A DNA stretch of 64,000 bases from Akkermansiaceae bacterium (GTDB lineage: Bacteria > Verrucomicrobiota > Verrucomicrobiia > Verrucomicrobiales > Akkermansiaceae). Location: NCBI GenBank assembly GCA_015061985.1, contig SUVN01000010.1, positions 1 to 64,000 of the forward strand, read 5' to 3'. A program made the translations under genes and the position numbers. Under the pieces are notes generated by a model that was given only the letters and a program-made list of their open reading frames with translations, was not told where the DNA came from and made no database searches. Positions 82 through 60,542 of this stretch are shown here, piece after piece. The number at the start of each line of letters is the position of its first letter. Position 1 is the first letter of the stretch.

Positions 82-308
82 CTTGAAAATTTGCGCAGTT
101 TTGTATGACACAAAGCACGATTGCTTTGCGGGCTTGGTGAAGAACTCAGGCGTTGCGCTGAGTGGAGGTTGAATAAGCATGTATACGGTTGTTTGGAGTA
201 GGGATGTGGCGGCTCATTTCTCTGTCTGTTTAGTGGTATAGGGAAGAATCAACGCTTCCTTGATGTAATTTGCTTGAGAAACGGTAACAATTCGGGTACA
301 ATAAGGGC
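82..308 (+). other. intergenic region before glgB
   Basis: The gap is 227 bases and AT-richer than its neighbours. It holds a 7-bp hairpin at 111-128 (CAAAGCA/TGCTTTG, 4-base loop) without a T-tract. A 20-codon reading frame from the ATG at 179, preceded by GGAGG, ends in TAG and shows no recognisable features. The glgB promoter lies at its right end. Confidence 0.4.
274..302 (+). promoter_or_regulatory. sigma70-type promoter of glgB
   Basis: TTGAGA at 274-279 and TACAAT at 297-302 are 17 bases apart. The -10 box ends 6 bases before the ATG at 309, so the predicted transcript starts at or next to the start codon. Confidence 0.7.
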
Positions 309-2312
309 ATGAGAAGACCCCCGATACCCGGCTTGGTGCTGGCAGACAGCTGGTTAGCTCCCTTTGAACGCGATATCAAAGGCCGCCTGCGGCTTTTTGA
401 TTCGGCCATGGAGCGCATTTGTCGCCGCAGTGGGGATATTACGGAATTTGCGAAGGGCTATGAGCGCTATGGTTTTAACCGTGATGCCCGGACGGGTGAG
501 TGGATTTACCGCGAGTGGGCACCGGGGGCACGGGCGCTGTACCTGATAGGTGATTTCAACGGATGGAATCGTTCTGCCACTCCCATGCAGCGCAATGCTG
601 AGGGCGTGTGGGAAGTGCGGCTTCCGGCGGATGCTCTGGTACACGGACAGCATGTGAAGGTGCATGTCATCGGCGCAGACAATCAGGGGCGCGACCGCAT
701 GCCGGCCTGGATTCGCTACACGGAGCAGGATGCCTCCACCTTTGACTACTCCGGTATCATTTGGAAGCCCTCCGAACCTTACCGCTGGAAGAACACCCGC
801 TGGAATCCGTCTGTGGTTCGCACGCCGTTCATCTACGAGACGCACGTGGGCATGGCGGGAGAGGAAGAGTGCATCCATTCCTACCGTGAGTTTGCGGACA
901 ATGTGCTGCCGCGCATTGCCCGCCTGGGGTATAACGTGGTGCAAATCATGGCGATTCAGGAACACCCGTACTATGGTTCTTTCGGTTATCATGTCTCGTC
1001 TTTCTTTGCGCCGTGCAATCGCTTCGGCACCCCGGAGGACCTGAAGTATCTCATCGACACGGCGCATGGGCTGGGTATTGCCGTGCTGCTGGATGTGGTG
1101 CATTCCCACGCCGTCAAGAATGTGGCGGAGGGGCTGAACGACTTTGACGGCTCCGGCGGTCAGTATTTCATTGCCGGTGATCGCGACAGCCGCCACCCGG
1201 ACTGGGACAGCTGCCTGTTCAATTACGGGCGCATCGAGGTGCAGGAGTTCCTGCTCAGCAATCTGCGCTGGTGGCTGGAGGAGTACCGCTTTGACGGTTT
1301 CCGCTTTGACGGTGTTACCAGCATGCTCTACGTCCACCATGGGCATGAGCCTTTCACGGATTTGGGCTGCTATTTCAATAATCAGGTGAATCTGGATGCC
1401 GTGACCTACCTGCAACTGGCCACCACGCTGGTGCAGCGCGTCTGCCCGGGGGCGCTTATCATTGCGGAGGATATGAGTGGCATGCCCGGCCTTTGCCGTC
1501 CGGTGGATGAAGGCGGGTTCGGCTTCACGCACCGACTGGCCATGGGTCTGCCGGATTACTGGATTAAGCTGCTCAAGGAGAAGAAGGACGAGGAATGGAG
1601 TGTGGGGGATATGTGGTACACACTCATCAACCGCCGTTATGGCGAGCCTAATATCGCCTATGCCGAGAGTCATGACCAGGCTCTGGTGGGGGATAAGACG
1701 ATAGCGTTCAGACTCATGGATGCAGAGATGTATACCAACATGAGCTGCCTGCAGCCCGCCAGCCTCATTACGGACCGCGGCATGGCGCTGCACAAGATGA
1801 TTCGTCTGGCCACGCTGGCTGCCGGCGGCGAGGGCTGGCTCAATTTCATGGGCAATGAGTTCGGCCACCCGGAGTGGATAGATTTCCCCCGCGAGGGCAA
1901 CGGCAATTCCTACAAATACTGCCGTCGCCAGTGGAGTCTGGTGGACAATGTCGACCTGCGGTATCGCTACCTGAACGCCTTTGATGCGGCCATGGTGGCG
2001 CTGGCTCGCAAGGGGAATCTGCTCGATTCCCGCCCGGCACAGCCGCTGAACATGGATGAGCTCAATCAGGTGATGGCCTTTGAACGCGGCGGCTTGCTCT
2101 TTGTGTTCAATTGGAATGGCTCCCGCGCCATCCCGGACTACAAGCTGCCGGCCCCCGCACCCGGACGCTGGCGCGTGGTGCTGGATTCGGATGCCGAGGC
2201 TTTCGGCGGCTATGCCCGTCAGGATTCTTCCGTGTACCACTTCACGGATGAAAAGCGGCAGCTCTCTCTCTACCTCCTGCCGCGTACCGTGATGGTCTTG
2301 CAAAAAGCCTGA
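309..2312 (+). CDS. glgB: 1,4-alpha-glucan branching enzyme (GH13, eukaryote/Bacteroides-like type)
   Basis: This enzyme makes alpha-1,6 branches in glycogen by cutting and re-attaching alpha-1,4 glucan chains in the cytoplasm. The 667 residues carry an N-terminal CBM48-like beta domain (about 50-150, with WAPGA and GDFNGW), a GH13 barrel, and a C-terminal beta domain. The four GH13 signature regions are visible: DVVHSH near 261, GFRFDG near 330 (the Asp is the nucleophile), AEDM near 387 (the Glu is the acid/base) and ESHDQ near 454. Length and sequence style fit the GH13_8 type found in eukaryotes and some Bacteroidetes/Verrucomicrobia rather than the longer E. coli type. It stands alone; no other glycogen gene is in the window. 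The start is supported by the promoter immediately upstream. Confidence 0.93.
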   Translation: MRRPPIPGLVLADSWLAPFERDIKGRLRLFDSAMERICRRSGDITEFAKGYERYGFNRDARTGEWIYREWAPGARALYLIGDFNGWNRSATPMQRNAEGVWEVRLPADALVHGQHVKVHVIGADNQGRDRMPAWIRYTEQDASTFDYSGIIWKPSEPYRWKNTRWNPSVVRTPFIYETHVGMAGEEECIHSYREFADNVLPRIARLGYNVVQIMAIQEHPYYGSFGYHVSSFFAPCNRFGTPEDLKYLIDTAHGLGIAVLLDVVHSHAVKNVAEGLNDFDGSGGQYFIAGDRDSRHPDWDSCLFNYGRIEVQEFLLSNLRWWLEEYRFDGFRFDGVTSMLYVHHGHEPFTDLGCYFNNQVNLDAVTYLQLATTLVQRVCPGALIIAEDMSGMPGLCRPVDEGGFGFTHRLAMGLPDYWIKLLKEKKDEEWSVGDMWYTLINRRYGEPNIAYAESHDQALVGDKTIAFRLMDAEMYTNMSCLQPASLITDRGMALHKMIRLATLAAGGEGWLNFMGNEFGHPEWIDFPREGNGNSYKYCRRQWSLVDNVDLRYRYLNAFDAAMVALARKGNLLDSRPAQPLNMDELNQVMAFERGGLLFVFNWNGSRAIPDYKLPAPAPGRWRVVLDSDAEAFGGYARQDSSVYHFTDEKRQLSLYLLPRTVMVLQKA

Positions 2313-2374
2313 TTTTTACTCCGTGACGCAGAAAAAGTTGCGGATTCTCTTCGGAATCGGATGTATAGGGGTGT

Positions 2375-2761
2375 ATGAGATACATTTTTTCAGCAGCGTT
2401 GGTCCTGGTGGCAGTCGGCTGCGGCGATGCCCGTCCGTCCCGGACACAGCCGCCTCCCGCCATCGCCACCTATCCTGCATCTGAGCTGGATGCAGAGATT
2501 CTCACCGTCTGCATCAACGACTATAAAAAGCGATACCGCGCGGGCAGAGAGATGAAAAATTACCTTCGCTTTGACTACCGCGTGCTGACAAGTGAAGAAG
2601 CATCACGCCGCCGCTTCCTGCAACAGCCGCAGCTTGAGCCCGGACAACGCTATGTGCTGGTGACTATCTGCGATTTGCCGCCCCGCTGGTTGGGTGGTGC
2701 AGCGGAGTATCTGGTGCAGCCGACGACACGGAAAATACTGGCCTGGACACACGGAAAATGA
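2375..2761 (+). CDS. small putative lipoprotein, unknown function
   Basis: The 128-residue product begins with a short hydrophobic segment followed by a lipobox-like sequence ending VGCG, so it is probably a lipoprotein with Cys16 as the lipidated residue. The mature part is polar, has a Pro-rich stretch just after the Cys, and matches no family I recognise. A weak promoter may precede it (TTGCGG 2338-2343, TATAGG 2364-2369, spacing 20). Its stop codon overlaps the ATG of the next gene by four bases (ATGA), so the two are translationally coupled and may work together. Confidence 0.65.
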   Translation: MRYIFSAALVLVAVGCGDARPSRTQPPPAIATYPASELDAEILTVCINDYKKRYRAGREMKNYLRFDYRVLTSEEASRRRFLQQPQLEPGQRYVLVTICDLPPRWLGGAAEYLVQPTTRKILAWTHGK

Positions 2762-2961
2762 AACCCTGCTTAATCATGGTTGCGGCAGCAATCTCGTTGA
2801 TGGTCTGTTCCTGCAGCGATATGCAGGCAGATTATTTCTGCGACAACACTATCACTCTTGACAATGGAGGGAAGCAACGGCTGACGAAGCTCCCTCATCC
2901 TGATAGATTGGAATTTGGCGAGCCTCAGGCGAGCGGAAAATCAGCCCCGGCAGGGGCGTAA
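2758..2961 (+). CDS. short putative lipoprotein whose C-terminus is encoded by a repeat element
   Basis: The 67-residue product has a signal-like N-terminus and a lipobox-like segment (MVCSC), which suggests lipid attachment at Cys18 or Cys20. It overlaps the preceding lipoprotein gene by four bases. The last 14 or so residues (from GEPQASGK to the end) read straight into the palindromic repeat at about 2921-3200, and the stop codon lies within that repeat. The gene is therefore probably truncated or re-ended by insertion of the repeat. The function is unknown, and it may no longer be functional. Confidence 0.5.
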   Translation: MKPCLIMVAAAISLMVCSCSDMQADYFCDNTITLDNGGKQRLTKLPHPDRLEFGEPQASGKSAPAGA

Positions 2962-3287: not shown

Positions 3288-3986
3288 TCAATCCCGCCAG
3301 GCATCCGGGAATTGATTGGGTTTCGGCAGCGCCCGGGCGGGGCGGCAGATGCGGTTGAACTCCACGGAAAGCTCCTGCCTGCCGTTGTCAAAGAGTATGT
3401 TCGTTTCCTGTACCGGGCTGTAGAGACAATCCCGCCGCCGCAGACTCATCTTCAGACCCGTGTAGCCACAGGTGTACACCTCTGCAACGTGGTCATAGCT
3501 CGGCGTTCCGTCCTCTTCCGTATACCAGGAGACCAGCCGCAGTTCCCGCGGGCTGACGCGATTGAGGAAGAGGCGGCGACCATCTTCCCAGAGGGCCGTT
3601 TTCCATACACCCTCAATCCATGCGGGATAATCTTCATCCGTACACGTGATATGTGCGACATGACGATGTGGAGGTTCCGGGCAGACCTCATCACTGCGGA
3701 AAAAACGGTCGGTGTCCCATATCTCCACCAGAATACCGCCGGATTCTGCATGCGGATAGAGGTGGAGTCTGAATGCTCCCCAGCTGCTGTCCATGCGGAA
3801 CGCCAGATAGGCGGCATTGATGCTGATGGGAGTCAGCTCGCATTCTTCGTCCCGTGTCACATCCGTCAGGCGGATATCGAGATAACGCTCTCTGACCTTT
3901 ATTTTCAGGCAATAGTCCATGATGTATGCAAAGTACCATGTGCCGGTGTACAGCGAACTCAGGGGAGTGTGGGTGCGGAGATTCAT
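3288..3986 (-). CDS. conserved-looking hypothetical protein
   Basis: The 232-residue product has no signal peptide and no membrane segment. It is rich in Trp, Tyr, Asp and Glu, alternates hydrophobic and charged residues, and looks like a mainly beta cytoplasmic protein. I do not recognise a family. The start is well supported: a promoter (TTGACT, 17 bases, TACCAT with an upstream TG) ends nine bases before this ATG. It is transcribed divergently from the giant surface-protein gene, with the 450-bp regulatory-looking gap between them. Confidence 0.7.
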   Translation of the reverse strand: MNLRTHTPLSSLYTGTWYFAYIMDYCLKIKVRERYLDIRLTDVTRDEECELTPISINAAYLAFRMDSSWGAFRLHLYPHAESGGILVEIWDTDRFFRSDEVCPEPPHRHVAHITCTDEDYPAWIEGVWKTALWEDGRRLFLNRVSPRELRLVSWYTEEDGTPSYDHVAEVYTCGYTGLKMSLRRRDCLYSPVQETNILFDNGRQELSVEFNRICRPARALPKPNQFPDAWRD

Positions 3987-3995
3987 CGATGCTCC

Positions 3996-4024
3996 ATGGT
4001 ATCATGGGGCACGAATGCAGTCAA
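3996..4024 (-). promoter_or_regulatory. extended -10 promoter of the minus-strand hypothetical gene
   Basis: Read on the minus strand, TTGACT (4019-4024) is followed after 17 bases by TACCAT (3996-4001), which has TG one base upstream. Nine bases separate the -10 box from the ATG, giving a predicted leader of about two bases. Confidence 0.7.
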
Positions 4025-13233: not shown

Positions 13234-13261
13234 TTGACTTTCAGCGGATTTGCCGTAGAAT
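13234..13261 (+). promoter_or_regulatory. sigma70-type promoter of dxr
   Basis: TTGACT (13234-13239) and TAGAAT (13256-13261) are 16 bases apart. The ATG at 13271 is nine bases past the -10 box, so the leader would be only two or three bases. Confidence 0.75.
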
Positions 13262-13270
13262 AGACGGCGT

Positions 13271-14431
13271 ATGAAGAGAAAACGCGTTGTCATCCTTGGC
13301 TCCACCGGCAGTATCGGCACCAGCGCACTCAAAGTGGCGCGCGATATCCCGGAGCGTATGGAGGTGGTGGCGCTTGCGGCCCACAGCAGTGTCGGCAAGC
13401 TGGCCGAGCAGGCACGTGAATTCGGCGTGCGCCATGTGTGCATCTTCGATGAATCCAAGGTCGCAGAGCTGCGCGCGCTTCTCCCGGCAGATGTGAAGAT
13501 TTGTGCCGGACTGGAGGGGCTGTGTAAGCTGGCCGCGCTGGAGGACGCCGACATGGTGCTGGTATCCATCATCGGCACTGCCGGGCTGCAACCCACGCTC
13601 TGTGCCATTGAGGCCGGGAAGGACCTGGCGATTGCCTCCAAGGAGATTCTGGTGATGGCCGGTGAGGTGGTCATGACGCGCGCAGCGGAGAAGGGAATCA
13701 ATGTGCTGCCTGTGGATAGCGAGCACAATGCCATCTACCAATGCCTGCAGGGCAACCACGGCGGTGCAGAGCAGGTGAGCCGCCTCATCCTCACCGCCAG
13801 CGGCGGCCCGTTCCGCACCACTCCCCGCGAACAGCTGGCAAACGTCACGCTGGAGCAGGCGCTCAAGCATCCCACCTGGAAGATGGGGCGCAAGATTACC
13901 ATTGATTCTGCCACCCTCTTCAACAAAGGGCTGGAAATGATTGAAGCGCGCTGGCTTTTCGATATTCCCATGGAGCGGGTGGATGTCATCGTGCATCCGC
14001 AGAGTATTGTGCATTCTCTGGTGGAGTATCGCGACGGCTCCATTCTGGCGCAGCTCAGCTCCAGCGATATGTGTTTCCCCATTCAGTATGCCGTCACCTG
14101 GCCGGAGCGTATTGATAATTCTCTGCCGCATCTCAATCTGGCAGAGATTGCCGCCCTGCGTTTCGAAGCCCCGCGTTGGGATGATTTCCCTGCGCTGAAT
14201 CTGGCACGCCATGCCGGAATCATCGGCGGCACGATGCCTGCCATGTACAACGCCGCCAACGAAGTGGCTGTGCAGGCATTCGTGGAAGGACGACTCAGCT
14301 TCCCCGGTATCTGGCAGACCGTGGAGAAAACTCTCGCCGCCGCCACCCCGGAGGATTACCACGGACAGCTGGATATCATCCTCGCGGCTGATGCCTGGGC
14401 GCGAGAATATGCAGCCTCTCTCATTCGCTGA
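13271..14431 (+). CDS. dxr: 1-deoxy-D-xylulose 5-phosphate reductoisomerase
   Basis: DXR converts deoxyxylulose phosphate to methylerythritol phosphate with NADPH, the committed step of the non-mevalonate isoprenoid pathway in the cytoplasm. The 386 residues match the usual length. The N-terminal GSTGSIGTSAL is the NADPH-binding loop. DSEHNAI near 155 carries metal-binding Asp and Glu, TASGGPF near 177 is the substrate loop, and the HPTWKMG...DSATLFNKG...EMIEA block completes the active site. It is a single-gene unit with its own promoter, and it converges on the large ABC transporter gene. The isoprenoids would feed, among others, the menaquinone made by the men genes in this window. Confidence 0.96.
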   Translation: MKRKRVVILGSTGSIGTSALKVARDIPERMEVVALAAHSSVGKLAEQAREFGVRHVCIFDESKVAELRALLPADVKICAGLEGLCKLAALEDADMVLVSIIGTAGLQPTLCAIEAGKDLAIASKEILVMAGEVVMTRAAEKGINVLPVDSEHNAIYQCLQGNHGGAEQVSRLILTASGGPFRTTPREQLANVTLEQALKHPTWKMGRKITIDSATLFNKGLEMIEARWLFDIPMERVDVIVHPQSIVHSLVEYRDGSILAQLSSSDMCFPIQYAVTWPERIDNSLPHLNLAEIAALRFEAPRWDDFPALNLARHAGIIGGTMPAMYNAANEVAVQAFVEGRLSFPGIWQTVEKTLAAATPEDYHGQLDIILAADAWAREYAASLIR

Positions 14432-24570: not shown

Positions 24571-25512
24571 TCAGTCGCGGCGGGTCATTTCTACAAACAC
24601 ATCCTCCAGACTGGGAATGTGACGGTAAATATGGCGCATGGGGTAGCCGTGCGCGGCAATAATGGCCGCCGCTTTCTCTCGGGTGTCAGTGCCCGGTTCT
24701 GCGCGTACAATGAGTCGATTCCAGCCGCCGGGCAGGGGCTCTTCCACGATGACTTTCTTCACCGGGGCAAAGGCCTCCAGCGCCTGCACAACAGGTGCCA
24801 ACTCGCCCTTGTATTCAATAGACACACGACCTGCGGCGCGCAGCCCTCTTGTCAGGTTTGCCGGAGTATCATCTGCCTTGATGACGCCCTGGTCTATGAT
24901 GATAACCTTGTTACATATCATTTCCACTTCGCTCAGGATGTGGGTGGAAAGGATAACCGTATGTTCCTCGGCCAGAGAGCGAATCAATTCGCGTATCTGG
25001 CGAATCTGGTTGGGATCGAGCCCGTTTGTCGGCTCATCCAATATCAGCAAATCCGGATTACCCAGTAGAGCATCTGCCAACCCTGTGCGTTGACGATAAC
25101 CTTTTGATAATGTACGGATAAGGTTTTTTCTCTTCGGCTCAAGCCCACAGCGGTCAATGGCCCAGCCAATCTGTTGACGCACGGAAGAGCCGTACAGCCC
25201 CTTGAGTCGGGCTCGGTATTCCAGATACTCGTATACGCGCATGTCTTCGTACAGGGGCACGTTTTCCGGCATGTAGCCCAGATGTCTGCGGGCTTCCAGG
25301 GGATTGTCGATGATATCATACCCGGCTATGCTGCCGGTGCCGGCTGTCGGCGGCAGATAGCCCGTCAGCATCTTCATCGTCGTGGTCTTACCGGCACCGT
25401 TCGGCCCCAGAAATCCCACGATTTCTCCTTTTTCTACCGTAAACGTCGCGTCCTTTACCGCCGTGAATCGACCAAAGACCTTGTGCAAATGCTCCGCGCG
25501 TACCATACTCAT
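24571..25512 (-). CDS. ABC transporter ATP-binding protein (GldA-like)
   Basis: The 313-residue ATPase has Walker A GPNGAGKTTT, signature LSKGYRQRTGLA, Walker B LLILDEP and a switch His in STHILSE. A C-terminal extension of the GldA/CcmA type follows (about 225-313). It powers the permease encoded next to it. I chose the ATG at 25512 because the promoter -10 box ends 11 bases before it; an in-frame ATG follows at 25506 and a TTG lies upstream. It is the first gene of an eight-gene minus-strand run with short gaps or overlaps. Confidence 0.9.
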   Translation of the reverse strand: MSMVRAEHLHKVFGRFTAVKDATFTVEKGEIVGFLGPNGAGKTTTMKMLTGYLPPTAGTGSIAGYDIIDNPLEARRHLGYMPENVPLYEDMRVYEYLEYRARLKGLYGSSVRQQIGWAIDRCGLEPKRKNLIRTLSKGYRQRTGLADALLGNPDLLILDEPTNGLDPNQIRQIRELIRSLAEEHTVILSTHILSEVEMICNKVIIIDQGVIKADDTPANLTRGLRAAGRVSIEYKGELAPVVQALEAFAPVKKVIVEEPLPGGWNRLIVRAEPGTDTREKAAAIIAAHGYPMRHIYRHIPSLEDVFVEMTRRD

Positions 25513-25523
25513 AAGCGACAATC

Positions 25524-25551
25524 ATTCTACCAGCTTCTCCTGTGATTTCAA
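25524..25551 (-). promoter_or_regulatory. promoter of the Gld-like ABC operon
   Basis: On the minus strand TTGAAA (25546-25551) and TAGAAT (25524-25529) are 16 bases apart. The -10 box is 11 bases from the ATG at 25512, so the predicted leader is about four bases. Confidence 0.7.
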
Positions 25552-25719: not shown

Positions 25720-25748
25720 TTGACGCATGAGCGTGGTCGCGATAGGAT
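25720..25748 (+). promoter_or_regulatory. promoter of the osmC-like gene
   Basis: TTGACG (25720-25725) and TAGGAT (25743-25748) are 17 bases apart. Only six bases separate the -10 box from the ATG at 25755, so the transcript should be leaderless. Confidence 0.7.
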
Positions 25749-25754
25749 GCTCAC

Positions 25755-26162
25755 ATGGTAAAGTGTCATGTAACATATCAAGGTGGGCTGCATTGTGAAT
25801 TGCAGCATGAGCCGTCCGGAGCAACGGTGTGCAGCGATGCTCCTGTGGACAATCGCGGCAAGGGCGAATCGTTCTCACCGACAGATTTGATGTGTTCTGC
25901 CATGGCAGCCTGCATGGCCACCATTATGGGGATTTACGCAGAAGACAACGGGCTTGATTTGTCGGGAGCCAAGCTGACCGTCGGCAAAGTGATGAGCGCT
26001 AATCCTCGTCGCATAGCTCGCATCGAGACGGAAATCACCATACCGCTTCCGGCTGATACCCCACACGCCAAAGCGTTGGAAGAATGCGTACTGGGAAGCC
26101 CGGCCATGCGAAGTTTGCACCCGGACATTGAAGTGCCGATAACCTGGAATTGGGTTGGTTGA
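25755..26162 (+). CDS. OsmC/Ohr family protein
   Basis: Members of this family are thiol-dependent peroxidases or related stress proteins. The 135-residue protein has FSPTDLMCSAMAACMAT, the helix carrying the first reactive Cys (Cys54), and a second Cys near 111 (LEECVLGSP), in the expected places. The length is normal. Substrate range (organic peroxide or other) cannot be read from sequence. It is transcribed divergently from the Gld-like ABC operon and has its own promoter. Confidence 0.88.
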   Translation: MVKCHVTYQGGLHCELQHEPSGATVCSDAPVDNRGKGESFSPTDLMCSAMAACMATIMGIYAEDNGLDLSGAKLTVGKVMSANPRRIARIETEITIPLPADTPHAKALEECVLGSPAMRSLHPDIEVPITWNWVG

Positions 26163-26168
26163 TATGAT
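26160..26168 (+). promoter_or_regulatory. extended -10 element before the small membrane protein gene
   Basis: TG, one base, then TATGAT (26163-26168) lies nine bases before the ATG at 26178. No good -35 box is present at the normal distance, which is acceptable for an extended -10 promoter. Confidence 0.45.
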
Positions 26169-26177
26169 GCTCGCGCC

Positions 26178-26627: not shown

Positions 26628-26637
26628 CACTTACGAT
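26610..26637 (+). promoter_or_regulatory. promoter of the Pro-rich lipoprotein gene
   Basis: TTGATT (26610-26615) and TACGAT (26632-26637) are 16 bases apart; the ATG at 26647 is nine bases past the -10 box. The -35 box lies inside the end of the upstream gene. Confidence 0.5.
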
Positions 26638-26646
26638 AAAGAACTT

Positions 26647-29615: not shown

Positions 29616-29622
29616 TGCCGCC

Positions 29623-31050: not shown

Positions 31051-31079
31051 TTGAATGAGGAAGCCAACTGTGATAGAAT
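31051..31079 (+). promoter_or_regulatory. promoter of the pheA-holB-yicC-gmk operon
   Basis: TTGAAT (31051-31056) and TAGAAT (31074-31079) are 17 bases apart, with TG one base before the -10 box (extended -10). The ATG at 31091 lies 11 bases past the -10 box. Confidence 0.75.
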
Positions 31080-31090
31080 GCGCGCATTGT

Positions 31091-35413: not shown

Positions 35414-35442
35414 TTGCCGAGCGAGGGTAAGTGTGATACCAT
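35414..35442 (+). promoter_or_regulatory. promoter of the menDBC operon
   Basis: TTGCCG (35414-35419) and TACCAT (35437-35442) are 17 bases apart, with TG one base before the -10 box. The ATG at 35453 is ten bases past it. Confidence 0.6.
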
Positions 35443-35452
35443 GTTGCGCGTT

Positions 35453-37060
35453 ATGGCAGGAATGAGCGCCAAAAGAGAACTGCGGGAGCTGGCAGCACTG
35501 ATGAACGCACATGGGGTAACGCGCTGTGTCGTGAGCCCGGGAAGCCGCAACGCGCCGATTGCAATGACGCTGGAAGCAGCGGGGTTCGAATGTCGCACTG
35601 TGGTGGATGAACGCAGCGCCGGATTTGTCGCTCTGGGGTGGGCCTCACAAGTGCAGGATGCCGTGGCCGTATGCGTCACCTCCGGCTCGGCCGTGCTGAA
35701 CCTCCATCCGGCCGTGGCAGAGGCATACTACCGCCATATCCCGCTTCTGATACTGACGGCGGATCGCCCTGCGGCCTGGATTGGTCAGCAGGATGGACAG
35801 ACGCTCCCCCAGCCGGGAGTGTTTGGCGGGATGGTGCGCGCTGCTTACCATCTGCCGGAGGGAGAAGGGAACGATTGGGAGGTCAACCGCATCATCAACG
35901 AAGCGTTGCTGGAGCTTCGGCATCGTTCCGGCGGTCCGGTACAGCTGAATATCCCGCTGAACGAACCATTGTTCACCACCACGGAAGAAGCGCTGCCGGA
36001 GCCGCGCATCATTCGCCGCACGGAGCTGTCGTGCATGACGGCAGATGATGAGGATGAGCTGCTGGATATGGTGGCACGACTGCCGCGCCGCATGATTCTG
36101 GTGGGCCAGCTGCCACAAAGCGCAGCCATACCGCCCGCACTGGTCACGGAAAAGCAATTCGCGACCGTGGGAGAACAACTGAGCAACACCCCCCTGCTCT
36201 GTGCCCGGCCGGACGCCCTGCTGAGCCGGGGTACGGAGGGGATGGCACCGGATTTACTCATCACCGTGGGGGGCTGCATCGTCTCCAAGCGGCTCAAGCA
36301 ACTGCTGCGCAGTCATCCCCCGAAGGAGCACTGGCACATCAGCCGCGATGGCGAGGTCTGCGACACCTTTTGTGCCCTCACCCGCTGCATCGAGGGCTCT
36401 GCCGACGAAATCTGGGAGTTGTTGGCCGCCTTTGCGGAAGAGGGAGATGAGGAATATGCGGTCCGGTGGGCAACGGAGCCGCCGGCGTTTGAAGGCTCGT
36501 TCTGCGGCATGACGGCCGTGGGCGCAGCATTGGCCGCACTGCCGGAGAATGCCGTGCTGCATCTGGGCAACAGTTCTGCCGTGCGCTATGCCCAGCTGTT
36601 CCCGCTGAAAGAGGGGGTGCAGGTAGAGTGCAACCGTGGAGTCAACGGTATCGAGGGCTGCGTCTCGGCGGCACTGGGCTTCGCCGGTGCGGATAACCGC
36701 CTGCAACTGCTGATTTGCGGAGATTTGAGTTTCTTCTACGATATGAATGCGCTGTGGATGTCCGGGGCGACACCGAACATGCGCATACTCCTGCTGAACA
36801 ACGGCTGCGGCGGCATTTTCTCTGCCATCGGAGCACCGGACAGCCCGCTGGTGAACGCTCCTCACCATGCCACGGCTGAAGCCTGGGTTCGCAGCTGCGG
36901 ATTCGGCTATCGCGCTGCCCGAAACGCAGCAGAGCTGGCAGAGGGGATAGCTTTTCTGATGGAGGAGAGTGTCTCCCAACCGCTGTTGCTGGAGGTCTTT
37001 ACCGATGCTCAGCAGGATGCTGATTTGCTGAAGAAGTTTTACAACCAAGCCGCTAACTGA
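35453..37060 (+). CDS. menD: 2-succinyl-5-enolpyruvyl-6-hydroxy-3-cyclohexene-1-carboxylate synthase
   Basis: MenD is a thiamine-diphosphate enzyme that adds 2-oxoglutarate-derived succinyl semialdehyde to isochorismate in menaquinone synthesis. The 535 residues show [11 protein letters not shown] and [13 protein letters not shown] at the N-terminus, LTADRP, and a C-terminal ThDP-binding part with [15 protein letters not shown] and [10 protein letters not shown]. The ATG at 35453 was chosen from the promoter position; ATGs at 35441 and 35462 are alternatives. It heads a tight operon with menB and menC. No menF or menE is in the window; menA lies 24 kb away. Confidence 0.93.
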
Positions 37061-45273: not shown

Positions 45274-46593
45274 TCAGTTATTGGTAAAGGTTTCGATGCG
45301 GAATACAGCCGGGTGGCGTTCGATGTAATCGTGTTTGCGCAGCGCTTTGAGCGCCTTGCGGAGTCTGCCCCACGGGCAGGAATGCAGGATGAACACCAGA
45401 TTGTTACGCGGCATGCCATCCACCATGTCGTGGGGTGTGGAAGAGGTGGCAGAGATGCCGATGTCCAGCTTGGCCAGCTCACTGGCAATCGCGGCAATCA
45501 CACCGGGGCGATCCTGTACCAGGAAACGCACGTAGTACGGGGTCTCTGTCTCTTCCTGGGGCATAACGGCCATCTTCTTGGTGTAGGGATGGAAGCCGGT
45601 GTGGTACTCGGGATGGCGGCACTCGCGCATGGCCAGCACCACATCACCGATAACGGCGCTGGCAGTCGGGTTCTTCCCCGCGCCGCGACCGTAGAAAACG
45701 GTTTCGCCCACGATATCCCCCCGCACGGCAATGGCGTTGAATACGCCATCCACCTTCGACAGCAGGTGACTCTGCGGCACGAAGCTGGGCTGCACACGCA
45801 GCTCCAGTCTGTCTCCTTCCTTGTGGTGTTTAATGACCACCAGCAGTTTAATAGTGTAACCCAGACGATCGGCAAACGCAAAATCAGTGCTGGTGACCCG
45901 CTCTATGCCGTATACAGAAATCTTATCCGGTGCCAGAGGTGTACCATAGGCCAGCATCGCCAGAATCAGCGCTTTGTGGGCAGCATCCCAGCCGTTGATA
46001 TCCAGTGTCGGGTCAGCCTCGGCATAGCCCTTTTCCTGCGCTGCGGCCAGTGCATCCGCATAGGAAACACCGCCCTTTTCCATAGAGGAAAGGATGTAGT
46101 TGCTCGTCCCGTTAATGATGCCGGTAATACTTTCTACATTGTTGCAGATGAGCGAATTCTGCAAACTTTGTATAATGGGAATACCGCCGCCGCAGGAGGC
46201 TTCGAAATACAGCGGCACTCCTTTTTCCTGCGAAATACGGAAGAGTTCGCTGCCGTATTCAGCCAGCAGAGCCTTATTGCCCGTCACCACCGGTTTGCCG
46301 GCCTGGAGGGAGGCCTTCACCAGATCATAAGCGACCCTGGTGCCGCCTATCAGCTCAATAATGATGTCGATTTCCGGGTCATCCACCAGTTCACGCCAGT
46401 TCTCCGTCAGCAGCTCCGGAGCCACTTCCACCTCTCGGGGGCGGGATAAGTCTCGCACAGCTATCTTTCTGACTTTGTATGCCATCTGCACACGCGCCTC
46501 AAGCAAATCATGATTCCGGCACAGTGTTTCATACACACCTGTACCCACTGTGCCAAGGCCCGCAAGCCCTATCTGCAACGTCTGTCTGGTCAT
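45274..46593 (-). CDS. hom: homoserine dehydrogenase
   Basis: Hom reduces aspartate semialdehyde to homoserine with NAD(P)H. The 439 residues show an N-terminal Rossmann motif (IGLAGLGTVGTGVY), VTGNKALLAEYG, the substrate-binding block EASCGGGIPII...GIINGTSNYILS, a catalytic region (EADPTLDINGWDAAHK) and a C-terminal ACT domain (VRFLVQDRPGVIAAIASELA). It is the first gene of a five-gene run, and its promoter is back to back with the region of the ankyrin gene. Confidence 0.95.
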   Translation of the reverse strand: MTRQTLQIGLAGLGTVGTGVYETLCRNHDLLEARVQMAYKVRKIAVRDLSRPREVEVAPELLTENWRELVDDPEIDIIIELIGGTRVAYDLVKASLQAGKPVVTGNKALLAEYGSELFRISQEKGVPLYFEASCGGGIPIIQSLQNSLICNNVESITGIINGTSNYILSSMEKGGVSYADALAAAQEKGYAEADPTLDINGWDAAHKALILAMLAYGTPLAPDKISVYGIERVTSTDFAFADRLGYTIKLLVVIKHHKEGDRLELRVQPSFVPQSHLLSKVDGVFNAIAVRGDIVGETVFYGRGAGKNPTASAVIGDVVLAMRECRHPEYHTGFHPYTKKMAVMPQEETETPYYVRFLVQDRPGVIAAIASELAKLDIGISATSSTPHDMVDGMPRNNLVFILHSCPWGRLRKALKALRKHDYIERHPAVFRIETFTNN

Positions 46594-46604
46594 GAGCGGG
46601 CGCG

Positions 46605-46633
46605 ATTTTACACCGAAATAACATCTAACTCAA
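46605..46633 (-). promoter_or_regulatory. promoter of the hom-lysC-tpr-tpr-murJ operon
   Basis: On the minus strand TTGAGT (46628-46633) and TAAAAT (46605-46610) are 17 bases apart; the ATG at 46593 is 11 bases past the -10 box. Confidence 0.7.
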
Positions 46634-48596: not shown

Positions 48597-49478
48597 TCAC
48601 TCAGCGTTTTTCGTAATGAGCAATACCCCTGCGGCTATCAGGAGGAGGGAGAGACACTTCTGCCATGTGAGGATGTCCAAGCCCAGCATTATCCCAACAA
48701 CAGCAGCAATAATGGGCTGCACATAGTTATAGGCCGCCACCGTGGGAGGATCCAGTCGCCTCTGCCCCACGATTAACAGCAGATAGCTGAAAAAGGATCC
48801 CCCGATGACGACATAGGCAATGGCGAAAAGTTCCTGAAGGCTGAAAGTAACGCTTGGCAGAGCTACAAGACGGCTGCGCATCGGCTGCAGCGTCAGCACA
48901 GCGGCAAACAGGAAGAGCCACTTCATGATGGTCACGGGATGATACCGACGCAGCACCCCGCCGAAAAAGACAAAATAACACGCCGCTGAAAACTGGGATA
49001 TGAGACACAGCGTATCGCCCAGCGGATGCCCACTGAGGCCGCCGCCTGACCCGAGTATCAACACCAACGCCCCGACGGATGCCAGCAGAAATCCACCCAC
49101 GCGCAGCAACGTCACCCGATGGTGCAGAAACAGTGCGGCAAGAATGAAGGTCATCACCGGGGTGGACGTACCGACAACGCAGGCATTCGTGGGTGATGTG
49201 TACTGAATCCCCAGAACATAGAGGAATTGATTGATGACCATACCGCAGAGCGACATCCCCAGCAGCGGCAACCAGTCATTGCGGGCTATTTTCTCGCGCG
49301 GCGTCAGCGGAGAGATAAGCCAGAACAACAGCGCCGCACCGCTGACGCGAAAAAAGGCCAGCAGAACCCCATCGATAGCTCCGTTCTGCATGGCAAGCTT
49401 ACACATGGGGCTCATCAGCCCGAACAGGAGGACTGCCCCAAGCGCGCAGATGTGACCTTTAAGCAGATAATGGCGCAT
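48597..49478 (-). CDS. EamA/DMT family transporter
   Basis: The 293-residue protein has about ten membrane helices in two EamA halves ([17 protein letters not shown] in the first, [25 protein letters not shown]...PIIAAVVG in the second). Drug/metabolite exporters of this family move amino acids, nucleotides or other small metabolites; the substrate cannot be read. Its stop codon lies two bases from that of the ankyrin gene, which it meets head to head. Confidence 0.88.
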
Positions 49479-49487
49479 GCGGCCGGC

Positions 49488-49516
49488 ATTCTACCACAGC
49501 GGCTCCTGTTCTTCAA
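49488..49516 (-). promoter_or_regulatory. promoter of the DMT transporter gene
   Basis: On the minus strand TTGAAG (49511-49516) and TAGAAT (49488-49493) are 17 bases apart. The ATG at 49478 lies nine bases past the -10 box. Confidence 0.7.
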
Positions 49517-49540: not shown

Positions 49541-49568
49541 TTGACACCCCTGCTCACCGTGCTATAAT
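49541..49568 (+). promoter_or_regulatory. near-perfect sigma70 consensus promoter
   Basis: TTGACA (49541-49546) and TATAAT (49563-49568), both exact consensus hexamers, are 16 bases apart. The ATG at 49576 is seven bases past the -10 box, so transcription should begin on the start codon. Confidence 0.85.
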
Positions 49569-49575
49569 GCCGGGG

Positions 49576-50139
49576 ATGAAGACACAACGGGAACTGATGG
49601 TATCGGGTGAATTGTATGACCCCATGGATTCAGAAATCGAGCGTCTCCGCAATCGCAGCCGAGACATTCTGGCGCGATACAATGCCACGTCTCCGGCTGA
49701 GCAGGACACCAGAACCGCCCTGATGAGCGAATTCCTGGGCGGTCACGGTCGCAACCTGTATATCGAGCCCCCCTTTCGCTGCGACTACGGGTGCAACATT
49801 CGTGTCGGTGAGAATTTCTATTGCAACTTTGACTGTCTGTTCCTGGATTCCGCACCTATCACCATCGGCGACCGTGTCATGCTGGGACCGGGAGTCCACA
49901 TCTACACCCCCTGCCACCCGCTGCAGAAAGAACTGCGCGCCACCGGCAGAGAATACGCCAAACCTGTAACCATCGGTAACGATGTCTGGATTGGCGGCCG
50001 CGCCATCATCTGCCCGGGTGTTACCATTGGCAACGGTGTTGTTATCGGTGCCGGTTCCGTTGTGACTCGAGACGTGCCGGACAACTGCGTAGTCGCAGGC
50101 AACCCCGCCCGCATCATCCGTACCATCGAGCAGGTTTGA
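49576..50139 (+). CDS. maltose/galactoside O-acetyltransferase-like protein (hexapeptide repeat)
   Basis: The 187-residue protein has the Mac N-terminal region (about 1-60: [23 protein letters not shown]) and a left-handed beta-helix of hexapeptide repeats ([51 protein letters not shown]). The catalytic His is in HPL near 116. It transfers acetyl from acetyl-CoA to sugars such as maltose or galactosides; the exact acceptor is not determined. The start at 49576 is fixed by the promoter ending seven bases before it; the ATG at 49567 overlaps the -10 box and cannot be used. Confidence 0.88.
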
Positions 50140-52183: not shown

Positions 52184-53272
52184 TTATAAATGTAAATCTG
52201 ATGTAGGAACGGGGCGCGCCGGATCTGCAATACGGGGTGACAGGATAGCATCAGCCACCGGACCGTCCAGCCAGTGGACGAGAGAAGTCATGGCGGTTTC
52301 CTCATCAAACAGACGCTTTACATCCGGCAGGATGTCCCGCTGTCTGGGAGAGAGAGACGGCAAAGGCTCGTCTCCGCGAAGGAGTGCCCACACCTCACGC
52401 TTATCGCTGCACAAGCGATGATAAATGGTAAGAGAATCAGCCAGAGTACAGACGGGGTTATCGCGCGTCAGATGAATGACCAGTACGGGGACATCCCGGT
52501 CAATAAACGAGGCCTGCTCCACAGGGGCCACGTCAAAGCATTCCATGCCCACGGTGCGATCCATGCGCAGATTCATCAGTTCCAGAACTACCGGGGTAAG
52601 TATAGAGTCCGGCAGCATGCGTTTCACGGACTGACGGAGGGAGGCGTAGGCATCAATGACGGCAAGTCCCTGAATGCGTTTATCATGAGCAGCAGCCCGC
52701 AGCAGCAGCCCGGCTCCATATCCCTGCCCCACGGCCACAACAACCGGCTCCGATCGCTCACTACCAGCCTCCAGAGCATCGATGAGTAAGGGGACATCCC
52801 GACTTTCCCGAAGTCCATGGGTGCAATAGGGTCGCCTGTTATCCATACCTCTGGGATCCCAGAGAACACAACGCAACCCGGCGGCCGTCAGCGTTTCTGC
52901 CAGAGGGAGCGCAGAGCGAATGCCATGGTCCCAGTCCACACAAAGAAGCACATAATCAATGACCCCAAGCTTCTCAACAGGATTGACTGATAAATCACTC
53001 ATGACGGTGAGCTGGCGAGAGGACTCTTCCCCCTCCTTGGATACCAGAACCGCCTGCATTTCACCGCCGTCCCATCCCTTGAACGTGAAGGGTTCCATAT
53101 GAAGTCCCAACACCTTTTTGGGGAGGTTGGAGTAACCCGTGTAGGCCTGATTCAGGGGTACGAGAATGGGCTGCACCTGTCCCTCAATATAGAACCAGAC
53201 ACGCACCGCGCCTGCCCCCGCAAGCAGCAGGAACAGCAGGATAAGCAGATGCCTGAAACGGTGCTTTCTCAT
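52184..53272 (-). CDS. alpha/beta-hydrolase-fold protein lacking the nucleophile serine
   Basis: The 362-residue protein has an N-terminal membrane or signal helix (about 8-28) and an alpha/beta-hydrolase body (VDWDHGIRSALPLAETLTAAG, LWDPRGMDNR). The nucleophile elbow reads VGQGYGAG, with Gly where the family has Ser (GxSxG), so the protein may be catalytically dead or use another mechanism. A downstream HLTRDNPV could hold the acid residue. It is the first gene of a three-gene operon with the OmpA-like and HAD genes and has a very strong promoter. Confidence 0.7.
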   Translation of the reverse strand: MRKHRFRHLLILLFLLLAGAGAVRVWFYIEGQVQPILVPLNQAYTGYSNLPKKVLGLHMEPFTFKGWDGGEMQAVLVSKEGEESSRQLTVMSDLSVNPVEKLGVIDYVLLCVDWDHGIRSALPLAETLTAAGLRCVLWDPRGMDNRRPYCTHGLRESRDVPLLIDALEAGSERSEPVVVAVGQGYGAGLLLRAAAHDKRIQGLAVIDAYASLRQSVKRMLPDSILTPVVLELMNLRMDRTVGMECFDVAPVEQASFIDRDVPVLVIHLTRDNPVCTLADSLTIYHRLCSDKREVWALLRGDEPLPSLSPRQRDILPDVKRLFDEETAMTSLVHWLDGPVADAILSPRIADPARPVPTSDLHL

Positions 53273-53284
53273 CGTCGCATCGGC

Positions 53285-53313
53285 ATTATAACAGTCCCCT
53301 TGCCTGCCTGCAA
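53285..53313 (-). promoter_or_regulatory. promoter of the hydrolase-OmpA-HAD operon
   Basis: On the minus strand TTGCAG (53308-53313) and TATAAT (53285-53290) are 17 bases apart; 12 bases separate the -10 box from the ATG at 53272. Confidence 0.8.
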
Positions 53314-54498: not shown

Positions 54499-55359
54499 TT
54501 AAGCCTTCTTAAAGCGTTTCCATGGCATAATGATAGTCTCTACCACCCAGACGAAAGCCGAGCAGCAGGCACGGAAAGCTGTCACCAGCGGATGGATGCG
54601 GCTGCGGAAGCCGGTAAAGTGCTCATAGAACAAACTGGCGGCCACTATGCAGCAGATGGTGCTGAACTTGAGCACAATGCCCATGTGCCAGTGAATACCG
54701 CAGGCAGCCAGAGCCATTTCCGTGGTAAGCGCCACACCCACAAAGCCGACCAGCAGGAAAGCCGTGTAGCCGAGAATGGGGTGTTTTTCAATAATGCCGA
54801 TACACCAGCCGGCCACAATTCGCAGGGCTGCAATGCCGATGAACACACCCAGACAGACCACCCAGAGATGCATTTCCTCCGGGATTTCCTTCACGCCGTT
54901 AACCATGCCGACAGCGGCCACCACGTTATCGAGGGACAGGGACAAATCCATCAGCTCGATACTCAGGATAGTCATCAGGAAAGTCTTACCCGCCGTCTTG
55001 GCGGCTTCTCCGCCGACAGAGGAATTCGATTTTGCCTTGGGATGCAGCTGCACATGCTCGCAAGCCAGATAGATGAGGTATAGTGCGCCGAACCACTTGA
55101 CCCAGGCATTGTGCATGAGCCACGCCACCAGAGCCAACACAACGCCTCGGAACACGTAGGCTCCGACAAGCCCCCAACGCAAAGCCGCTTTCTGCTGATG
55201 CTTAGGCAGGTGGGATGCCATGGCAGCAATCCCCAGCGCATTATCCACGGAGAGGAGGCCCTCGATGAGAATCAGGTTGAAAATAACCATGCCGCAGGCC
55301 GTCAGGAAGGCCGGCATATTCTCAATACTTTCCCATGCAGTAACAATATCAGCAAGCAT
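54499..55359 (-). CDS. TerC family integral membrane protein
   Basis: The 286-residue protein has about eight membrane helices and the family blocks LLSVDNALGIAAMA and LMDLSLSLDNVVAAVG, the two acidic helix motifs of TerC/Alx proteins. Characterised members are linked to metal (manganese, calcium) homeostasis or tellurite resistance; the ion here is unknown. It starts a two-gene unit with the Mrp ATPase and has its own promoter. Confidence 0.88.
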   Translation of the reverse strand: MLADIVTAWESIENMPAFLTACGMVIFNLILIEGLLSVDNALGIAAMASHLPKHQQKAALRWGLVGAYVFRGVVLALVAWLMHNAWVKWFGALYLIYLACEHVQLHPKAKSNSSVGGEAAKTAGKTFLMTILSIELMDLSLSLDNVVAAVGMVNGVKEIPEEMHLWVVCLGVFIGIAALRIVAGWCIGIIEKHPILGYTAFLLVGFVGVALTTEMALAACGIHWHMGIVLKFSTICCIVAASLFYEHFTGFRSRIHPLVTAFRACCSAFVWVVETIIMPWKRFKKA

Positions 55360-55365
55360 GGGGGT

Positions 55366-55394
55366 GTTCTATCACAGCCCACACTCAGATGCAA
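55366..55394 (-). promoter_or_regulatory. promoter of terC-mrp
   Basis: On the minus strand TTGCAT (55389-55394) and TAGAAC (55366-55371) are 17 bases apart, and six bases separate the -10 box from the ATG at 55359. Confidence 0.65.
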
Positions 55395-58218: not shown

Positions 58219-58247
58219 TTGACATGATGAAGGGCAAAGGCTAGTCT
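58219..58247 (+). promoter_or_regulatory. promoter of the first thioredoxin-like gene
   Basis: TTGACA (58219-58224) and TAGTCT (58242-58247) are 17 bases apart. The first ATG at 58254 lies six bases past the -10 box, so an upstream GTG at 58248 is unlikely to be the start. Confidence 0.7.
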
Positions 58248-58253
58248 GTGCAG

Positions 58254-58772
58254 ATGATGAAACCTCTTCTGGTAAATACTGCATTGGTCGGTTTAATCCT
58301 CGGTTCGATGGTATGCCCCGCGCAAACACCTTCCGCAGCACTCGCAGCGGAAGCATCTGCGCTCAGCCCTGTGGCAGCTGCCATCGCCAAATTACCAACG
58401 GTCGGAGCGACATCTTTCAACCGGGATGCCGAGTACTTCATCTATCTGTACTCTGCCAGCTGGTGCGGCCCCTGCCGCCGGGTAATGCCGCATATTGTCC
58501 GATTTTACAAAGAGACGCTCAGCAAGGATAAGCGCATCGAAATCATTCTGGTGAATGTAGATAGAACGGAGGAAGAAGCTAAAGCCTACCTTGCCCATTA
58601 TGATGCCGATTTTTATACCATCATGGGAATAAATCCCGAGGTGGAGAAGCAGCTGCCGGGCGCATATCAGGTTCGCTCCATTCCCCACTATATCGCCGTT
58701 GACAAAAACGGAAATCGAATCAGCGGCGGGCATGCGTCCAAAATCTTCCTGGAGGTAGACAAACTCAAATAA
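58254..58772 (+). CDS. exported thioredoxin-like protein 1
   Basis: The 172-residue protein begins with a signal peptide (MMKPLLVNTALVGLILGSMVCPA) and a short linker. A thioredoxin fold follows with the active site SASWCGPCRRVMPHI near 65-79 and a cis-Pro-type SIPHY near 143. It is closest in style to TlpA/nucleoredoxin-like periplasmic thiol proteins. A reducing or oxidising role in the envelope is likely; partners are unknown. It is the first of three tandem thioredoxin-fold genes that share the block FIYL(Y/F)SASWCGPC. Confidence 0.88.
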   Translation: MMKPLLVNTALVGLILGSMVCPAQTPSAALAAEASALSPVAAAIAKLPTVGATSFNRDAEYFIYLYSASWCGPCRRVMPHIVRFYKETLSKDKRIEIILVNVDRTEEEAKAYLAHYDADFYTIMGINPEVEKQLPGAYQVRSIPHYIAVDKNGNRISGGHASKIFLEVDKLK

Positions 58773-59884: not shown

Positions 59885-59889
59885 AAGTT

Positions 59890-60465: not shown

Positions 60466-60479
60466 CCCGCTCACCACAC

Positions 60480-60510
60480 AGAAAGGCAGTCATCAGGCTG
60501 CCTTTCTTTC
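60480..60510 (+). terminator. intrinsic terminator after the thioredoxin genes
   Basis: AGAAAGGCAG (60480-60489) pairs with CTGCCTTTCT (60498-60507) across an eight-base loop, followed by TTCGTCTT. It lies 14 bases after the stop codon and just before the pyrC promoter. Confidence 0.75.
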
Positions 60511-60513
60511 GTC

Positions 60514-60542
60514 TTGCTGAAACGGTGAAAATATGGTAGGGT
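60514..60542 (+). promoter_or_regulatory. promoter of pyrC and downstream genes
   Basis: TTGCTG (60514-60519) and TAGGGT (60537-60542) are 17 bases apart; six bases separate the -10 box from the ATG at 60549. Confidence 0.55.

Follow-up and report, generated by a model that had tools for sequence, protein, structure and literature searches.

Leaderless transcription has been measured within the genus Akkermansia. With Cappable-seq of mouse cecum, 10% of 886 high-confidence transcription start sites (TSSs) of Akkermansia muciniphila were leaderless, in comparison to 0.4% in Escherichia coli, with TSSs at annotated gene starts, a -35/-10 logo and a YR start (PMC4782308). An earlier note on the DNA studied here had looked to Actinobacteria and Deinococcus for precedents, whereas the nearest one is thus Akkermansia itself. 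In Deinococcus-Thermus a "-10 motif adjacent to ORF" has been described, in which TANNNT lies a few bp before ~30% of ORFs, is leaderless and is conserved among orthologues; the -35 box is an optional enhancer there, and Shine-Dalgarno (SD) sequences are still used (PMC12340547). Akkermansia has also been placed beside the SD-scarce Bacteroidota, which show no SD enrichment and retain CCUCC in their 16S rRNA (PMC10783764). Leaderless mRNAs are few where they were measured in Bacteroidota, with 5.5% of the mRNAs of Flavobacterium psychrophilum (PMC9723704) and ~3.7% of 5' UTRs shorter than 10 nt in Bacteroides thetaiotaomicron (PMC7366714). The TA-led genes of Zheng et al. 2011, defined by TANNNT ~12 bp upstream of the start and tested with dinucleotide shuffles, form a further likeness, and the main text of that study names neither Akkermansia nor Verrucomicrobia (PMC3160421).

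Here we analysed a 64,000-nt stretch of DNA from an uncultured Akkermansia (the window) together with a larger part of its genome. The A. muciniphila share was measured among all TSSs of another species, whereas ours is predicted and refers to first genes of transcription units; promoter-to-ATG spacing for each gene, SD analysis and conservation are given here and not in the account of A. muciniphila in PMC4782308. Eighteen starts were listed in the window, the 17 of the earlier note and the thioredoxin gene (Table 1). The promoters that had been read directly in front of the ATGs were recovered. A TANNN(T/C) hexamer was located 6-12 nt upstream of the ATG in 18/18, and a TTG-type -35 box at 16-17 bp in 17/18, with the gene at 26178 as the sole exception with a -10 only, as had been noted. 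The clearest promoter, TTGACA-N16-TATAAT, ends at 49568, also as reported. The number of nucleotides between the -10 and the ATG (gap) was 6 in five cases, 7 in two, 8 in one, 9 in five, 10 in one, 11 in three and 12 in one. Scored with a promoter matrix for which only relatives had served as the training set, 17/18 starts exceeded 5; when these upstream regions were dinucleotide-shuffled 200 times, such sites numbered 0.38 on average and 3 at most. Two of the 18 sites carried a GGAG or AGGA tetramer.

Table 1. Promoters abutting the listed start codons of the window. The ATG positions of the ABC-transporter operon and menD were assigned in this analysis; the names menD and pyrC are from the earlier note.
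Feature	Span	Strand	ATG	-35, spacer, -10	Gap	Remarks
glgB promoter	274..311	+	309	TTGAGA-N17-TACAAT	6	motif kept in 28/30 genus orthologues
gene at 3986	3984..4024	-		TTGACT-N17-TACCAT	9	weak, score 5.8
dxr promoter	13234..13273	+	13271	TTGACT-N16-TAGAAT	9	motif kept in 27/33 genus orthologues
ABC-transporter operon	25510..25551	-	25512	TTGAAA-N16-TAGAAT	11	ABC_tran domain
osmC	25720..25757	+	25755	TTGACG-N17-TAGGAT	6	OsmC domain
gene at 26178	26163..26180	+		TATGAT alone, no -35	9	score -1.8
gene at 26647	26610..26649	+		TTGATT-N16-TACGAT	9	
gene at 29615	29613..29651	-		TTGACA-N17-TATGCT	7	
rsmA	29661..29700	+	29698	TTGCTT-N17-TACAAT	8	RrnaAD domain
pheA	31051..31093	+	31091	TTGAAT-N17-TAGAAT	11	CM_2 and PDT domains
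menD	35414..35455	+	35453	TTGCCG-N17-TACCAT	10	
hom	46591..46633	-	46593	TTGAGT-N17-TAAAAT	11	short leader predicted; 29/30 orthologues, nearly all gap 10-12
DMT transporter (EamA)	49476..49516	-	49478	TTGAAG-N17-TAGAAT	9	kept in only 10/26 orthologues and paralogues
acetyltransferase	49541..49578	+	49576	TTGACA-N16-TATAAT	7	2/2 orthologues
gene at 53272	53270..53313	-		TTGCAG-N17-TATAAT	12	21/28 orthologues
terC	55357..55394	-	55359	TTGCAT-N17-TAGAAC	6	TANNNT at gap 4-12 in 15/22 orthologues
thioredoxin-like gene	58219..58256	+	58254	TTGACA-N17-TAGTCT	6	Thioredoxin_8
pyrC (amidohydrolase)	60514..60551	+	60549	TTGCTG-N17-TAGGGT	6	Amidohydro_2

As the listed sites were chosen for showing promoters, the fair test against chance is on unselected genes. 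We used a sample covering 32% of the genome (753 kb), with 236 first genes and 171 operon-internal genes. Equal frequency of the motif in shuffled upstream DNA, which the earlier note had named as evidence against its reading, was not seen: TANNNT at gap 4-12 was found in 76/236 first genes, in comparison to 28.8±4.2 in 50 dinucleotide shuffles. Operon-internal genes were at background (15/171 vs 12.0 shuffled), and in E. coli 2/56 first genes had the motif 4-12 nt before the start. With the window left out, the motif was found in 69/216 first genes, against 25-41 in the next four 9-nt bins. The untrained E. coli consensus for -35 and -10 gave matches at gap 4-12 in 48/236 first genes, with no more than 11 in each of the other bins, and 0/171 in operon-internal genes at gap 4-12. 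Among in-frame ATGs within genes, TANNNT stood at the abutting distance in 238/4473 (5.3%).

The first gene caller, which set starts by score only, trimmed N-termini (the glgB start was set at 336, for example), and a second start rule was therefore adopted. On 48 annotated E. coli genes this rule recovered 46 stops and matched 41 starts; the caller is still incomplete, with 508 genes in 753 kb and osmC among those missed. The excess at first genes depended neither on the start rule nor on inclusion of the window. A start-free test on the 237 strong promoter matches of the sample, in which the seven training genes were here still represented by this genome's copies, gave 81 long-ORF ATGs at gap 4-12, in comparison to 18-22 per bin in the following four 9-nt bins and 2 in shuffled DNA. 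These copies were taken out for the SD, gap and matrix-based excess counts.

The reported scarcity of SD sequences was borne out. SD tetramers preceded 20/236 first genes and 13/171 internal genes, and the numbers in a control segment taken from this upstream DNA were 26 and 22, respectively. In E. coli the tetramers were found before 31/56 first and 26/40 internal genes, with 1 and 2 in the control. Internal genes of the related genome G004 were slightly above the control (15 vs 9 of 77). CCUCC was present at the 3' end of the 16S rRNA in 10/10 copies from three relative genomes of the genus, and the window's own assembly contains no 16S. Operon-internal starts were weakly structured, with an MFE of -3.4 around the start in comparison to -8.5 inside the gene, and 39/171 of them overlapped the upstream gene as ATGA. 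On plasmid DNA of D. deserti, 20/31 internal genes had SD tetramers (control 6). A mixed system of the Deinococcus type uses SD sequences at leadered and internal genes next to leaderless ones, which does not agree with the 13/171 internal genes of this genome. The genome also differs from Deinococcus-Thermus in its -35 box, which accompanies nearly every instance used (compared with PMC12340547), and from the Bacteroidota in that it combines missing SD enrichment with many abutting promoters.

Next to the window genes, we examined their orthologues in related Akkermansia. For seven genes, TANNNT was found at gap 4-12 in 132/171 rows and at 13-21 in 29/171, and a TTG lay exactly 23 nt ahead of the -10 start in 105/127 orthologous instances. 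The distance of the motif was thus kept, mostly with a TTG box at 17-bp spacing, and the intervening DNA was scrambled. Rows with identical upstream DNA, without a start codon within 12 codons or with a start shift of more than 2 codons were removed, which left 33/37 for dxr and 26/29 for 49478; the remaining orthologue sets were complete. In rows aligned from residue 1 with zero shift, identity at codon positions 1/2/3 after the ATG was 0.77/0.96/0.53 for glgB, 0.83/0.85/0.43 for dxr and 0.77/0.89/0.39 for hom. Beyond the abutting ATG, codon-phase conservation started at the second codon, no codon phase was seen upstream of this ATG in these three genes, and the ATG was present in all rows used (30/30, 25/25 and 29/29). 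We therefore take the abutting ATG as the true start of glgB, dxr and hom; for terC, 53272 and 49478 the codon-phase signal was weak or not clear. What marks TA-led genes is also found here, as TANNNT exceeded dinucleotide shuffles, the signal was at first and not at internal genes, and the ATG beside the promoter was real in these three genes.

Among related genomes, the motif was clear in G004 (31/133 first genes vs 14.2 shuffled) and weak in two small samples (4/26 vs 2.0 in G001 and 6/21 vs 4.2 in G022). A general Verrucomicrobiota trait of equal strength was not supported, with 8/79 vs 4.7 in G029 and 12/72 vs 5.9 in G031, and two pools of other Verrucomicrobiota were also low (28/198 vs 19.3 and 18/178 vs 8.2). 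At the dxr locus of other Verrucomicrobiota, from which 4/67 loci were removed as duplicates or as lacking a start, the motif was at chance level (7/63 outgroup rows). The ribosomal protein bS21 was considered as a lineage marker and rejected, as it was found in 39/39 genomes searched and does not discriminate between lineages.

That promoters were simply read into AT-rich upstream DNA beside ATGs is conceivable for 18 sites picked by eye, but the shuffles, control positions, inner ATGs and conservation across species all rule it out. It is also very unlikely that the abutting ATGs are not real starts and that an in-frame codon further downstream, behind an ordinary leader, is where translation begins. 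The score-only caller did place several starts further in, and start misannotation of this type has been reported in Deinococcus (PMC12340547), but codon-phase conservation and the invariant ATG speak against it for glgB, dxr and hom.

Somewhat less improbable, although still unlikely, is that the mRNAs are mostly leadered, with main starts upstream and the -10-like motif being either a minor real promoter or an AT-rich element that binds S1 and serves for ribosome standby. The untrained consensus does find upstream promoter matches in 8-11/236 first genes per 9-nt bin to ~48 nt, and in PMC5397173 an AT-rich bias at -20 to -10 was indistinguishable from S1 sites. However, an S1 site would need no TTG box at a fixed offset, operon-internal genes need ribosome sites too and have the motif at background only, and first genes show no enrichment of SD sequences. 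The data are best read as leaderless or near-leaderless transcription, given full -35/-10 promoters, their specificity for first genes, the distance to a verified ATG that is conserved in the genus, and the precedent in A. muciniphila (PMC4782308). The reading of the earlier note is thus supported in part. About half of the promoters are at gap 9-12 (35/71 genes), which is too far for the usual start at the A of ATG, so that a leader of 2-5 nt is predicted for them.

The claim that this mode dominates and covers most mRNAs goes too far. A strong abutting promoter (score >7) was found in only 67/236 first genes, ~22% above the control-bin mean, and was lacking in 169/236; the window is richer, with 10 of the 20 first genes called there. 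When a matrix trained on such promoters was used, 51-72% of the promoter excess detectable within 90 nt fell at gap 4-12; in raw counts, the untrained consensus placed 48 of 98 detectable promoters there. Abutting promoters in excess of background thus amount to between a fifth and a quarter of first genes, and to roughly half of all detectable promoters.

Bases around the start were also compared. A pyrimidine directly preceded the ATG in 96% and 85% of cases at gap 6 and 7, respectively. As a general mark of transcription start this was rejected, since it was also common in internal genes (0.78) and in first genes of E. coli (0.71). The only feature at -1 that stood out was C at gaps 6-7 (21/24 vs 88/171 internal genes, p = 8e-4). 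At gaps 9-12 an extra YR step at position 7-8 emerged only when rows of the genus were pooled, some of which are orthologues, and was not distinct in the own genome alone. AUG preference (61/65 vs 355/415) was in the expected direction and not significant (p = 0.08).

Very probably, judged from the sequence, primary-sigma promoters abut the AUG at a sizeable minority of transcription units in this uncultured Akkermansia, with predicted mRNA 5' ends on the AUG itself or 2-5 nt ahead of it. The arrangement seen in the sequence is a -35 (TTG..), a ~17-bp spacer and a -10 (TA..AT), whose end lies 4-12 nt, and mainly 6-12 nt, ahead of the true ATG. Transcription would start 7-8 nt past the -10, so that gaps 6-8 would be strictly leaderless and gaps 9-12 would have the short leaders. 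A promoter this close to the AUG leaves no room for an SD sequence, and with promoters against start codons and no SD enrichment many messages are predicted to begin within ~5 bases of the start codon. In other bacteria leaderless messages are read by initiator-tRNA-carrying ribosomes, which recognise the 5'-terminal AUG directly, and by analogy the 5'-terminal AUG of the Akkermansia messages may be read in the same way. Operon-internal genes without SD would rely on reinitiation at overlapping or adjacent stop and start codons, together with low structure around the start codon.

It may even be that, in this clade, initiation at the start of transcription units proceeds mainly on leaderless or ultra-short-leader mRNAs, a possibility we hold tentatively and lean somewhat against. 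Akkermansia would then have replaced SD guidance by position, with RNA polymerase putting the 5' end on the AUG and so determining where the ribosome starts, unstructured stop-overlapping starts within operons, and the anti-SD kept for another purpose.

As leaderless TSSs have been measured in A. muciniphila (PMC4782308) and Akkermansia has already been called SD-scarce (PMC10783764), the phenomenon itself is known. New are its extent, its conservation and the predicted split between strictly leaderless genes and genes with 2-5-nt leaders, as well as the SD-free operon-internal starts, which show little structure and in many cases overlap the gene before them. The two published facts, SD scarcity and leaderless transcripts, join into one initiation scheme, unlike that of Deinococcus, which is leaderless and SD-using, and unlike that of Bacteroidota, which is SD-free and mostly leadered where measured. 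If true, Akkermansia gene starts should be annotated from promoters and not from SD sites, and in expression tools made for this much-studied gut genus the promoter should be fused straight to the ATG. Since leader and promoter would be the same few bases, promoter changes would tune translation directly. The genus would then also be a natural system for studying the competition of leaderless messages and the role of an intact, unpaired anti-SD.

The earlier note had read promoters abutting start codons throughout the window, a spacing that stood out clearly from shuffled upstream DNA when unselected genes were scored. In a 753-kb sample of the organism's own genome, gene calls were made from codon usage alone, ignoring upstream DNA, and a gene was counted as the first of its transcription unit if it was divergent or at least 100 nt behind a same-strand gene. 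The -10-type motif TANNNT ended 4-12 nt before the start codon (the gap) in 76 of 236 first genes, in comparison to 28.8 ± 4.2 in 50 dinucleotide shuffles (maximum 38), and the four following bins held 33, 36, 43 and 27. Similar proportions were found with the window left out (69/216), with divergent genes alone (47/132) and with another start rule (75/241). Operon-internal genes had the motif in 15/171 cases (12.0 expected) and in-frame ATGs within genes in 238/4473. The same procedure gave 2/56 first genes in E. coli K-12 (8.0 expected) and 10/65 on a D. deserti plasmid (3.4 expected).

All 18 starts named in the window have a -10-type hexamer 6-12 nt 5' of the ATG, and 17 of them also a -35 of the TTG type with a spacer of 16 or 17 bp, the gene at 26178 having a -10 alone. 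A promoter matrix trained on relatives' orthologous promoters gave 17 of the 18 sites a score >5; in 200 shuffles such sites numbered 0.38 on average and 3 at most. Pfam agreed with the names glgB, osmC, ABC ATPase, rsmA, pheA, hom, lysC, DMT (EamA) and terC, and supported a thioredoxin-like protein, a hexapeptide acetyltransferase and, for 'pyrC', an amidohydrolase; the Pfam search gave no match for the products of 3986, 26178, 26647, 29615 and 53272. Between the divergent genes 49478 and 49576 lie 97 bp that hold both promoters, each abutting the ATG of its own gene, with -35 boxes 24 bp apart. Elsewhere in the window, an inverted repeat beside hom looks like a candidate operator, and the rsmA ORF is an apparent fusion.

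Features of the window and recurrence of the abutting motif in orthologues
Feature	Position (strand)	Observation	Orthologues with TANNNT at gap 4-12
Long ORF	4312-13134 (+)	2,940 codons; a single match to PATR (autotransporter passenger repeat), below threshold; no abutting promoter	
ABC operon	25512 (-)	ATG adjoins promoter	
rsmA (KsgA) ORF	29698-31047 (+)	also encodes C-terminal NUDIX domain	
menD	35453 (+)	ATG adjoins promoter	
Inverted repeat	46695-46720	perfect (GCATTGTAACA / TGTTACAATGC); between hom and rightward gene called at 46765, which has no abutting promoter; spans GTG at 46708	
DMT	49478	-35 at 49511-49516 (-)	10/26
Acetyltransferase	49576	-35 at 49541-49546 (+)	2/2
Gene at 53272	53272		21/28
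glgB			28/30
dxr			27/33
hom			29/30
terC			15/22

Upstream DNA of orthologues was collected for seven genes, for dxr from 39 relatives and for the other six from 40 genus genomes (up to 30 loci each). Pooled, TANNNT occurred at gap 4-12 in 132/171 as compared to 29/171 at gap 13-21, and of 127 instances 105 had TTG placed exactly 23 nt 5' of where the -10 begins. The remaining upstream DNA was 27-46% identical between orthologue rows, about chance in most sets. From codon 2 of glgB, dxr and hom onward, identity was 85-96% at second and 39-53% at third codon positions, with no phase upstream, so the abutting ATG is the start of all three; the contrast was small for terC, 53272 and 49478.

How far the arrangement extends was estimated from promoter models. 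A scan of both strands of the sample for -35/-10 pairs, made without reference to starts and taking in this genome's versions of the seven genes used for training, found 237 pairs scoring above 11 bits and, in shuffled DNA, 100. At gap 4-12 there were 81 ATGs opening at least 60 codons (2 in shuffled DNA), and in the next four bins 22, 22, 18 and 20. Once the training genes were removed, 228 first genes were eligible, of which 41-56 had a promoter at gap 4-12 at thresholds 9 to 5, and 30 at threshold 11. Of the excess of promoters in the nearest 90 nt or so, this bin held 51-72%, a share obtained with a matrix trained on abutting promoters; for this reason the untrained E. coli consensus was also applied, and found 48/236 first genes at gap 4-12 and 8, 11, 8, 9, 3, 6, 4, 1 and 0 in the following bins. 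When alternative ATGs were allowed, 67/236 first genes had a strong abutting promoter (control bins 9-21). The suggestion that most mRNAs are leaderless goes further than these counts show: the excess over background amounts to between one fifth and one quarter of first genes, and gap 4-12 takes about half of the detectable promoters.

Where transcripts would begin was judged from base composition. The base before ATG was a pyrimidine in 96% of genus instances at gap 6 (n=78) and 85% at gap 7 (n=66), and in the own genes at these gaps it was C in 21/24 as compared to 88/171 internal genes, a pattern that fits transcripts starting with the A of ATG at a pyrimidine-purine step. In the genus pool, gaps of 9-12 came with an extra pyrimidine-purine step 7-8 nt past the -10 (peak 0.40-0.61), and leaders of 2-5 nt are predicted for these genes. 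Since the pool includes orthologues and the own genome alone gave no clear signal, the split into two classes is a prediction. The 71 own genes scoring >7 comprised 36 at gaps 4-8 and 35 at gaps 9-12. DNA between -10 and ATG was 67% G+C in the own-genome sample, as compared to 45% further upstream. In E. coli, a G+C-rich discriminator of this kind is associated with stringent control.

The reported scarcity of Shine-Dalgarno (SD) sequences held up: neither first nor internal genes had SD tetramers or anti-SD pairing above the level of a control stretch. Pairing energies averaged -1.70 kcal/mol for first genes (control -2.27) and -0.81 for internal genes (control -2.49); internal genes of E. 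coli, and of the D. deserti sample too, had clear SD in the same analysis. The complete genus genome G004 was a partial exception (tetramer in 15/77 internal genes, control 9). CCTCC is retained at the 16S 3' end of 10/10 copies from three genus genomes, the own assembly having no 16S. Internal genes had weak structure at the start (MFE -3.4, compared to -8.5 within the gene and -7.5 upstream), and 39/171 had an ATGA overlap.

The window makes up the first 64,000 bases of contig C1 in an assembly of 2,365,510 bases (53 contigs, 90% complete). The encoded dxr protein shares 99% identity with that of Akkermansia sp. RGIG2114, from goat colon, and 97% with that of RGIG1758, from goat cecum, and a genome search placed the organism in one genus with other Akkermansia; together these indicate an uncultured Akkermansia (Verrucomicrobiota), neither an actinobacterium nor a Deinococcus. 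We infer the goat as its host from these nearest records. In G004, 31/133 first genes had TANNNT at gap 4-12 (14.2 by chance). Among small samples of related genomes, G013 had 9/33 (3.3) and G053 4/23 (1.6); G001 (4/26, 2.0) and G022 (6/21, 4.2) were not distinct from chance. The signal was weak in other Verrucomicrobiota, and at dxr the motif occurred there in 7/63, not beyond chance, which indicates that the abutting arrangement at dxr belongs to Akkermansia. Outside the genus, DNA before dxr often resembles the last part of an open reading frame, with aromatic-rich codons (loci L020-L080 and six more), as if dxr were operon-internal there; within Akkermansia it has a promoter of its own.

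Published work reports 886 confident A. muciniphila transcription start sites from Cappable-seq of mouse cecum, 10% at annotated starts (0.4% for E. coli; PMC4782308), and, in a 2024 survey, an SD-scarce Akkermansia with CCUCC intact (PMC10783764). Deinococcus-Thermus has the same promoter-beside-ORF pattern, which was tested by mutation there and concerns about 30% of ORFs (PMC12340547), and measured leaderless mRNAs are few in SD-free Bacteroidota (PMC9723704, PMC7366714). Among the open-access matches listed, none joined Akkermansia SD scarcity with leaderless transcripts or gave a promoter-to-ATG spacing for Akkermansia. For many genes the leaderless reading is very likely correct, and a predicted class with short leaders stands beside it. 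Akkermansia adds an SD-free example to a known mode, one already measured in the genus.
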